Source: Candidatus Nitrosotenuis uzonensis (GTDB lineage Archaea > Thermoproteota > Nitrososphaeria > Nitrososphaerales > Nitrosopumilaceae). Taken from it: a DNA stretch of 64,000 nucleotides. A program made the position numbers and the translations under genes. Below the pieces are notes generated by a model that was not told the DNA's origin, did not search any database, and saw only the letters and a program-made list of their open reading frames with translations. The stretch is from contig NZ_CBTY010000011.1 in the NCBI RefSeq assembly GCF_000723185.1, positions 163,403 to 227,402 on the forward strand. The letters are read 5' to 3'. Below, piece after piece: positions 27,794-30,477 of the stretch (position 1 is the stretch's first letter; each line of letters opens with the position of its first letter).

Positions 27794-29146
27794 GTGACAA
27801 AGAAAAGAATTCTGGTCTTGGGCGGTGGTTTTGCGGGTGTAGAATGCACGCGCAGGCTGGAATCATATTTCAAACATGATTCTGACGTTGAGCTAGTGCT
27901 AGTATCTGAGGACAACTTTCTTTTGTTCACACCAATGCTGCCTCAGGTGGCATCTGGCATGATAGAGACGCGCCACATAATAATACCGATCAGGACAATA
28001 TGCAAGAAAGCGACGTTCTACGAGGGGAGAGTCAAGAACATAGACCCATACGGGAAGCGCGTTACACTTTATGGCACGAACGAAAAGCGTGGTATCTCCC
28101 TTGATTATGATTATCTGGTTGTGGCGCTGGGAAGCCAGACCAATTTCTTTGGCAACCAGTCGGTCGAAACTTATGCGTATACTATGAAGACACTCAATGA
28201 TGCAGTCGTGTTGCGAAACCGAATAATAGACATGCTAGAGCAAGCAGAAAACGAGACTGATCCGATACTCAAACAATCATTACTGACATTTGTTGTAGTA
28301 GGTGCCGGCTTTGCGGGAATAGAGACGGCTGGAGAGATGCTAGATTTTTTACATGACGCAAAAAAACACTATCCGCATATCTTGGAGCAAGACATCAGAG
28401 TAATTATTCTTGAAGCTCTCTCTGTAGTCCTGCCAGGATTCTCAGACAAGCTTGCCAAATTCACACGCGACAAACTGATACAGAGGGGGATCGAGATAAG
28501 ACTTAACACACTTGTGGTCAACTTTGACGGTTCTGAAGTGATAATAAAAAACGCCACAGATCCTTCAAAAAATCCCGTAAAGGAAATCACTCTTGATTCC
28601 ATACAGACCAAGACGTTGATATGGACAGCTGGTGTTACACCTGTGGATACAATCAAAAACTCTTCTTTTAAGACTGACAGGGGTAGAGTAATTGTAAATG
28701 AATATCTTGAGGTACCAGACTTTGCCGGAACGTTTGTTGTAGGGGACTGCTCACTTACAATTGATCCGAACACGGGAAAACCATACCCGCCAACTGCCCA
28801 GAACGCAGAAGCTGAGGCAAAGATTGCTGCATACAATCTATATGCTGACATCAAGGGACACAAGAGGAAAAAGATAGATTATGTGTCAAAGGGTCAGATG
28901 GCGATCATAGGCAAAAGAACTGCGATTGCGCAGCTAGGCGGCCTGAATATTTATGGGATAGTAGCATGGTGGATCTGGAGAACGGTGTATCTTCGCAAGA
29001 TTCCAAAACTGAACAAAAGACTCAGAGTCATACTTGACTGGACGGCAGATCTTTTCTTTGATAGGGATATTTCCAGACTGAAAATTATAAGAAGAGAGCA
29101 ACCGGTGGATTACAAGGAATTAGACGAAGTGGATGATGTCTGGTAA
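27794..29146 (+). CDS. Type II NADH dehydrogenase (NDH-2), FAD-dependent
   Basis: A 450-residue flavoprotein of the pyridine nucleotide-disulfide oxidoreductase family, NDH-2 type. It has an N-terminal FAD site LVLGGGFAGVECTRRLE (about residues 6-22), a second nucleotide site VVVGAGFAGIETAGEMLDFL near 172, and the flavin-binding GTFVVGDCSL near 310. NDH-2 passes electrons from NADH to quinone without pumping protons and is anchored to the inner membrane face by its C-terminal amphipathic part. The start is GTG at 27794, with a TATA box at the right distance. It is a single gene. Confidence 0.92.
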   Translation: MTKKRILVLGGGFAGVECTRRLESYFKHDSDVELVLVSEDNFLLFTPMLPQVASGMIETRHIIIPIRTICKKATFYEGRVKNIDPYGKRVTLYGTNEKRGISLDYDYLVVALGSQTNFFGNQSVETYAYTMKTLNDAVVLRNRIIDMLEQAENETDPILKQSLLTFVVVGAGFAGIETAGEMLDFLHDAKKHYPHILEQDIRVIILEALSVVLPGFSDKLAKFTRDKLIQRGIEIRLNTLVVNFDGSEVIIKNATDPSKNPVKEITLDSIQTKTLIWTAGVTPVDTIKNSSFKTDRGRVIVNEYLEVPDFAGTFVVGDCSLTIDPNTGKPYPPTAQNAEAEAKIAAYNLYADIKGHKRKKIDYVSKGQMAIIGKRTAIAQLGGLNIYGIVAWWIWRTVYLRKIPKLNKRLRVILDWTADLFFDRDISRLKIIRREQPVDYKELDEVDDVW

Positions 29147-29602: not shown

Positions 29603-29767
29603 ATGGGTCTATTTAACAAAAAGGACGATGCAAAGGAAACAAAATGCAAAACATGCGGATTAGAATTACATGATCCTGAACGCCTGCAAAGACATATCAA
29701 AAAAGCACACGGACACCTGCCTGCCAAAAAGATGGAACCTGGAAGCGGCGATGGCGGCCTCTGGTAA
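29603..29767 (+). CDS. 54-residue C2H2 zinc-finger microprotein
   Basis: ATG 29603 to TAA 29767. A classical finger C15-x2-C18-x12-H31-x4-H36 (CKTCGLELHDPERLQRHIKKAH, in part) is the only domain, with a basic N-terminus and a Gly/Pro-rich tail. Such a short single-finger protein may bind DNA or RNA weakly or act as an adaptor. It is on the same strand as the micropeptide at 29406, after that gene's terminator, so it probably has its own promoter. Confidence 0.75.
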   Translation: MGLFNKKDDAKETKCKTCGLELHDPERLQRHIKKAHGHLPAKKMEPGSGDGGLW

Positions 29768-29845
29768 CTGACTACACAAATCGTCATCCTGCGTTGACAC
29801 TGGAAATCTTTGGTCAAAACTTTTGGATAAAAAGTGTTTTAGAGT

Positions 29846-29994
29846 GCGACGACGAGGAAATGGTACAACCCAATGCCGGGGGGCAATTTGGGCGTAGAAT
29901 GCAGCGGCATGGTAATCCAATGCATTCCTCAGACTTTTGGATCCTATCCGTTCACCTACGGACGAGCTCAATCTGAGTATCCTCGTTTCGCCGC
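29846..29994 (-). ncRNA. Structured RNA candidate of unknown family (about 149 nt)
   Basis: Read from 29994 to 29846 on the minus strand, the sequence closes on itself: GCGGCGA plus CGAGGA pairs with TCCTCG plus TCGTCGC, 13 base pairs with a two-base bulge, and a G-U pair that is only allowed on this strand. Inside are CTCAGA/TCTGAG, the hairpin TCCGT-AGGTGA-ACGGA, GAATGCA/TGCATTC, and CCCAA-AT-TGCC-CCCC-GGCA-TTGGG. A TATA-like CTTAAATATAA is 22-24 bases upstream, and a run ending CACTTTTTATCC follows the end. It does not match the core motifs I know for RNase P, SRP RNA or 5S rRNA. The remaining intergenic sequence here (29768-29845 and 29995-30087) shows no gene. Confidence 0.6.
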
Positions 29995-30009
29995 ATATTA
30001 TACGTCGAA

Positions 30010-30021
30010 ATTATATTTAAG
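30010..30021 (-). promoter_or_regulatory. TATA-like box for the structured RNA
   Basis: The minus strand reads CTTAAATATAAT, about 22-24 bases upstream of the first paired base at 29994. Confidence 0.5.
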
Positions 30022-30087: not shown

Positions 30088-30477
30088 TTAATAGTGGGTA
30101 TAGTCACCGTGTAATTCGTTCTCAAGTTTCTCGATAATGTCCATTTGTCCGCCCTTGTTATCTATGCTAACCAAAAGCAAATGTGCATCACCAAGCGGCA
30201 TGGTGACTCGCCTTAGCTTATCGTATACTGCAAGCACATACCTTCCTTTCCCTATCTTGTGTGCAAGCTTTGCCCTGATCTTCCAAGAATTCACCGAGTA
30301 CTTTAGCGATTCTTGGGTTTCTTCCTCTGTAAGTAGATTTGTTACATCCCTTCTTTTTGCAGAACAGACAACATTTGCATTCATATCGCATATTCGTGCG
30401 TGCCTGATATTTTCGTCAAGATCCATTATCCTATCCAACAGATGCTCAAAATCCATTTGGCAGTATTCTATGGTCAA
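30088..30477 (-). CDS. Roadblock/LC7-like small protein
   Basis: A 129-residue soluble protein. A first helix (DFEHLLDRIMDLDENIRHARICD) is followed by strands (ANVVCSAKRRD), a helix with the TEEETQESLKYSV stretch, and the closing strands GRYVLAVYDKLRRVTMPL and HLLLVSIDN. This alpha-beta order suits the roadblock/LC7 or DUF-type sensor fold seen repeatedly in Thaumarchaeota. The assignment is from pattern only. It ends with an acidic helix. The ATG is at 30477. Confidence 0.65.
   Translation of the reverse strand: MTIEYCQMDFEHLLDRIMDLDENIRHARICDMNANVVCSAKRRDVTNLLTEEETQESLKYSVNSWKIRAKLAHKIGKGRYVLAVYDKLRRVTMPLGDAHLLLVSIDNKGGQMDIIEKLENELHGDYTHY

Follow-up and report, generated by a model that had tools for sequence, protein, structure and literature searches.

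A probable stand-alone structured RNA gene with its own TATA promoter in Candidatus Nitrosotenuis uzonensis and relatives from one archaeal family

The 64,000-nucleotide stretch of DNA analysed here (the window) contains, at 29994-29846 on the minus strand, 149 bases that can close upon themselves as a structured RNA, which raises the question of whether this element is a gene in its own right and, if so, of what kind. The gap that holds it measures 941 bases and is bounded by an oxidoreductase gene at 27794-29146 on the plus strand, which from its sequence we take to be a type II NADH dehydrogenase, and by an ORF at 30088-30477 on the minus strand. A 54-aa ORF in the same gap (29603-29767, plus strand) has a weak C2H2 zinc-finger match and was not found in the first set of related loci compared. 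We conclude that the element is very probably a stand-alone gene for a non-coding structured RNA with its own TATA promoter, belonging to a family confined, as searched, to one archaeal family. At the level of sequence, this reading draws on a conserved fold, a conserved promoter spacing, and the presence or absence of the RNA as a unit.

The minus strand of the element folds at -61.9 kcal/mol (z -4.88), a value equalled by none of 200 dinucleotide shuffles, whereas the plus strand of 29846-29994 reaches -55.2 kcal/mol (z -3.0). With energies corrected for GC content, the locus ranked third (z -3.07) among 2554 segments of 150 bases covering both strands; a frame placed exactly on the element gives a residual-energy z of -4.3, which is a selected figure. 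The original prediction had described a closed minus-strand fold with a 13-bp terminal helix, a 6-bp helix and hairpins, and had named the minus strand as the gene; refolding agrees with the former, and z is lower on the minus than on the plus strand. The layout comprises a terminal helix (P1) and three hairpins, one of which bears stacked upper helices, including one of 6 bp. P1 has 13 pairs (7+6), one of them G-U, and a 2-base bulge; its outer 7 pairs (GCGGCGA/TCGTCGC) are peculiar to the window's genome, and the part conserved in relatives is ACGAGGA/TCCTCGT. A candidate pseudoknot (CCAA/UUGG) was rejected, its pairs being invariant and free of covariation. The features, all on the minus strand, are as follows.

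30088-30477, minus strand: 129-aa ORF, a distant relative of a DUF6659-like protein, outside the RNA gene.
30001-30021, minus strand: promoter element CTTAAATATAATTTCGACGTA, made up of the TATA box at 30021-30013 and a conserved GACGTA; the same element precedes homologues.
29846-29994, minus strand: structured non-coding RNA, probable mature extent (fold z -4.88, homologues, covariation).
29980-29994, minus strand: 5' strand of P1, with the conserved core AACGAGGA at 29987-29980.
29928-29977, minus strand: hairpin P2 with its upper extension P2b (double changes C-G/U-A and A-U/U-G).
29906-29928, minus strand: core motif GGAAUGCAUUGGAUUACCAUGCC, in relatives GGAACGCCUUGGACU..., strongly conserved across relatives.
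29897-29927, minus strand: hairpin P3 with the conserved apical loop GGAYUACCAUGCC (double changes C-G/U-A and U-G/A-U).
29864-29896, minus strand: hairpin P4, in which a single base is bulged (C-G/U-A double change in a homologue).
29846-29858, minus strand: 3' strand of P1, with the conserved core TCCTCGT at 29858-29852.
29829-29833, minus strand: T-run (T5), a probable archaeal terminator.

BLASTN of the element against 200 genomes of the archaeal family returned only the self-match, so a covariance model was needed. A model built from the window's single sequence (R1) matched four genomes from two other genera; three matches span the full length (E 2.9e-12 to 5.3e-14), and the fourth is truncated where its contig ends. 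These relatives keep the terminal helix GACGAGGA/UCCUCGUC (with a G-U pair in one) and the three hairpins, and retain, with few changes, the string CCAAAGUUCURAGGAACGCYUUGGACUACCAUGCC. The refined model (R2) recovered the same genomes along with weak full-length matches, several of which had the common terminal helix. We then ran a pattern specifying only the terminal helix, with a spacer of 88-118 bases, on the family's 250 genomes; it yielded 13 matches in 12 genomes, whereas the reversed control pattern matched once. Each of the 13 has an upstream TATA box at similar spacing together with the core GGAACGCCUUG or a variant, although the query specified neither feature.

A compact branch of about 115 bases emerges from ten of these matches (nine if the second copy in genome G012 is left out), and the model made from this branch (R3) matched 27 genomes in four genera, every match running end to end. 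The window branch occurs in genera g1, g13 and g20 and the compact branch in g3, g12, g14 and g15, so that the two combined account for at least seven genera, all in one archaeal family, with intact copies in about 28 of 250 genomes. The window's genus was represented by 16 other genomes, all of which lacked the RNA. Beyond the family, neither a class-wide search with the window-branch model nor an order-wide one with the compact model turned up anything convincing, and the weak matches L051, L053, L055 and L056 were judged to be chance. Exact core patterns of the window branch found nothing among viral contigs; a looser helix pattern matched 13 such contigs and the compact-core pattern one, and these were rejected, being backed by neither model.

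In the window, a TATA-like box CTTAAATAT lies at 30021-30013 on the minus strand, and the promoter pattern, which was written from this RNA family, has a single match within three mismatches in the window, an exact one. In 24 of 26 intact copies, including those at unrelated loci, the TATA box starts 28-30 bases ahead of P1. The window copy has a distance of 34 to the conserved part of P1 because its P1 carries extra outer pairs; position 29994 lies 27 bases past the box. One copy, L091, has a weaker TATA match, GTTAAGTAG, at 29, which the best-match rule of our script skipped, and L084, in GC-rich surroundings, retains CTTAAGTAT and GCGTATA. Archaeal TATA boxes are centred about 26-27 bases before the transcription start. 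Taken together with that usual position, the spacing from box to P1 fits a predicted start at or beside the first base of the terminal helix. The original prediction had pointed to an upstream TATA-like box and a T-run after the end, and both are present where it had placed them.

The two branches likely, rather than certainly, form one family; the reservation arises because their inner hairpins differ. Promoter and spacing, terminal helix and core motif are common to both. Across branches the models do poorly: R3 scored at chance level on the window branch, and R2 was weak on the compact branch (best 18.9 bits). The second G012 copy (L057, also listed as L054) is intermediate, matching both models weakly (20.4 and 23.8 bits), and both G012 copies share AAAGUUCUGAGGAAMGCCUUGGACU. 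These two copies, L048 and L057, lie about 40 kb apart on contig C8 of G012 and differ in internal structure. Local alignment of the interiors was matched by 3 of 1000 shuffles for L048-L070 and 5 of 1000 for window-L089, against 144 of 1000 for window-L070 and 939 of 1000 for window-L084; interior similarity between branches thus depends on the pair chosen. A compact-like core was also sought in the window branch by forcing UGG/CCA pairs. In most of four window-branch folds the pairs came out unclear, and forcing cost 2-10 kcal/mol of stability in all of them, so this core was not adopted for the window branch.

We examined what surrounds the RNA in other genomes. In g12, g15 and g14 it lies behind a gene that, named from its sequence, is presumably an aldehyde dehydrogenase, and g12 and g15 have a convergent hemerythrin-domain gene on the far side of the RNA. 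Among 30 g12 loci fetched via the hemerythrin gene, ten have the RNA, one has a decayed copy and 19 lack it; the spacing between the two genes is 573-632 with the RNA, 570 with the decayed copy and 438-535 without, so that RNA-less sites are about 40-150 bases shorter. Presence, decay and absence at a single g12 site identify the RNA gene as accessory. Loss in g12 appears more likely than gain, judging from the site, because g14 and g15 share it. Decayed copies number four in all (L090, L093, L095 and L096, around 1501-1630); in these the terminal helix is eroding, as is the TATA box in most, and L090 is at the conserved aldehyde-dehydrogenase site. Copies in other genera occupy other loci.

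This conserved site is one ground for the likeliest of the alternatives, which is that the element acts in cis as a 3' UTR or antisense regulator of an adjoining gene. At the common site the aldehyde dehydrogenase gene precedes the RNA and runs in the same direction; a small acidic ORF converges on the RNA, the two overlapping at their 3' ends; the g12 P1 3' strand reads as acidic codons of that ORF; and the neighbourhood is conserved in g12 and g15 and, on the dehydrogenase side, in g14. However, the overlapping acidic C-terminus is not conserved, the copies in the window, g20, g13, g3, L084 and L091 adjoin other genes, and intact copies are preceded by a TATA box at a fixed distance; we therefore regard a cis element as improbable. 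A riboswitch or cis leader was rejected, since the downstream genes are convergent at L042, L043 and the g12/g15 site and the next ORF in the window is on the opposite strand. The exception is L091, where the RNA (1501-1628) lies 123 bases ahead of a same-strand gene (1751-2272) that reads from its sequence as a presumed multicopper oxidase. By similar assumptions from sequence, the RNA at L057 follows a plastocyanin-like gene and that at L089 is near another multicopper-oxidase-like gene.

Three mutually unrelated loci have related 129-aa proteins encoded within about 500 bases of the RNA: the window (30088-30477, minus strand), L048 (1906-2295, minus strand) and L089 (2077-2466, plus strand). 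One of these proteins is a sub-threshold match to DUF6659, and a search of the window's genus gave only 1-6 genes for such proteins per genome. The proximity, noticed after the fact, may be chance or may hint at a partner.

Compensatory changes in homologues had been proposed as a check on the fold, and they were found in both branches. In the compact branch (28 sequences), double changes occur in 25 of 42 pairs, against 9.6 in shuffles (none of 500 as high) and 6-14 pairs in slid controls, with 91.7% of cells paired; these figures come from an alignment that was fitted to its model and so leans to structure, and from a shuffle control that ignores relatedness. In the window branch, where the five sequences include three closely alike from one genus and the P2b register differs in the window, double changes occur in 5 of 42 pairs, against 2.4 in shuffles (14 of 500 as high) and 0-1 in slid controls, with 96.8% of cells paired.

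The same alignments bear on whether the window branch encodes a short translated ORF, K(V/S)LR(N/S)ALD(Y/S)HAxxFYA, seen in four copies. None of the four interrupts the frame, and third positions vary slightly more (variable columns by codon position number 2, 5 and 6), as a coding sequence might give. Yet the start (ATG, ATG, ACG, TTG) and the stop vary, the copies diverge after FYA, and the third-position changes fall mostly on compensated stem positions; the compact branch has 12, 7 and 8 variable columns at codon positions 1, 2 and 3, together with in-frame stops. Because start and stop are not conserved, and the codon pattern is either absent or explained by compensated pairs, a coding function seems unlikely from these comparisons, and this particular ORF very much so. 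Equally hard to credit is a small mobile element of the MITE type, whose terminal inverted repeats would form the helix: a terminal inverted repeat, patchy presence and differing loci are what it predicts, but the promoter is conserved outside the 'repeat', the site is stable across genera, the internal helices covary, and the RNA is single-copy in the window's genome and in nearly all carriers (G012 has two copies). That the element is an inverted repeat arisen by chance in a GC-rich spacer, as its GC content of 54% against 41% in the window might suggest, can be dismissed in view of covarying homologues in other genera.

Having favoured a stand-alone RNA gene, we asked whether it belongs to a known family. 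The element matched none of the 4227 models of Rfam 15 at gathering score (the best, LPR69, reached 12.7 bits where the cut-off is 40), and over the RNA in nine homologous loci the only hit was ceN106, at 22.8 bits against 60. ARAGORN and RF00005 found tRNAs or tmRNA elsewhere only, none at the element. Archaeal RNase P RNA (RF00373) is likewise a closed structured archaeal RNA, but its single match in the window's genome is elsewhere (C8:52718-52994, 168 bits). Archaeal SRP RNA (RF01857) and 5S rRNA resemble the element in that a terminal helix joins the 5' end to the 3' end; their models do not match it, and their length and conserved letters are unlike its own. The original prediction's view that there is no likeness to RNase P, SRP or 5S RNA thus agrees with the Rfam models. 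A box C/D guide RNA was rejected on inspection of 24 compact-branch copies, in which GAUGAC is not kept (AUUAAC, AUUGAC) and no CUGA is conserved; as for box H/ACA, ACA occurs in some copies and is missing in g15 and L084. Complementarity to, or mimicry of, the genome's own 23S rRNA was at shuffle level. Another orphan archaeal RNA, the 229-nt Tan1 of marine Thalassoarchaea, has a predicted complex fold (PMC5069720); compared by description only, it differs in phylum and length. Searches of the open-access literature found no earlier description of the element. Homologues, covariation and promoter spacing support the earlier reading of an undescribed small RNA, 'undescribed' referring to Rfam 15 and open-access text. 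We regard the RNA as a new family among the stand-alone structured ncRNAs, a kind already known, and a prior description is possible.

How might such an RNA work? Its own TATA promoter would drive transcription from the beginning of the conserved terminal helix, or from a few bases ahead of it, to the T-run, and the RNA would probably act in trans, given that the genes beside it are not the same in every clade. The closed helix P1 may serve as a stable scaffold displaying a near-invariant core, which in the compact branch is an asymmetric internal loop, C[GU]CC[UG] / UGA, and in the window branch a GGAAYGCNUUGGAYUACCAUGCC hairpin. On either side of the compact-branch loop, the adjoining pairs (A-U, A-U, C-G, U-A) are nearly invariant while outer parts of that hairpin covary, which is the appearance expected of a binding site. 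We tentatively suggest that P1 presents the core to a protein, which would be sequestered or recruited by the RNA in a regulatory and dispensable role, though this proposal is less probable than not. Our working analogy is with bacterial 6S RNA, Y RNA and other protein-binding RNAs, which combine a stable closed helix, a conserved internal loop and action in trans; in Rfam, no model of these matched the element or its homologues. That the core controls a general machine such as RNA polymerase or the ribosome, as bacterial 6S RNA does, is a more doubtful idea still, for an RNA restricted to one family and repeatedly lost; if true, it would represent a new class of archaeal ribonucleoprotein RNA.

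The Nitrosopumilales are major ammonia oxidisers, and to our knowledge very few regulatory RNAs are known from them. With an alignment, a promoter, identified carriers and natural non-carriers at the same site, the expression of this RNA, its partners and the effect of its loss are directly testable.
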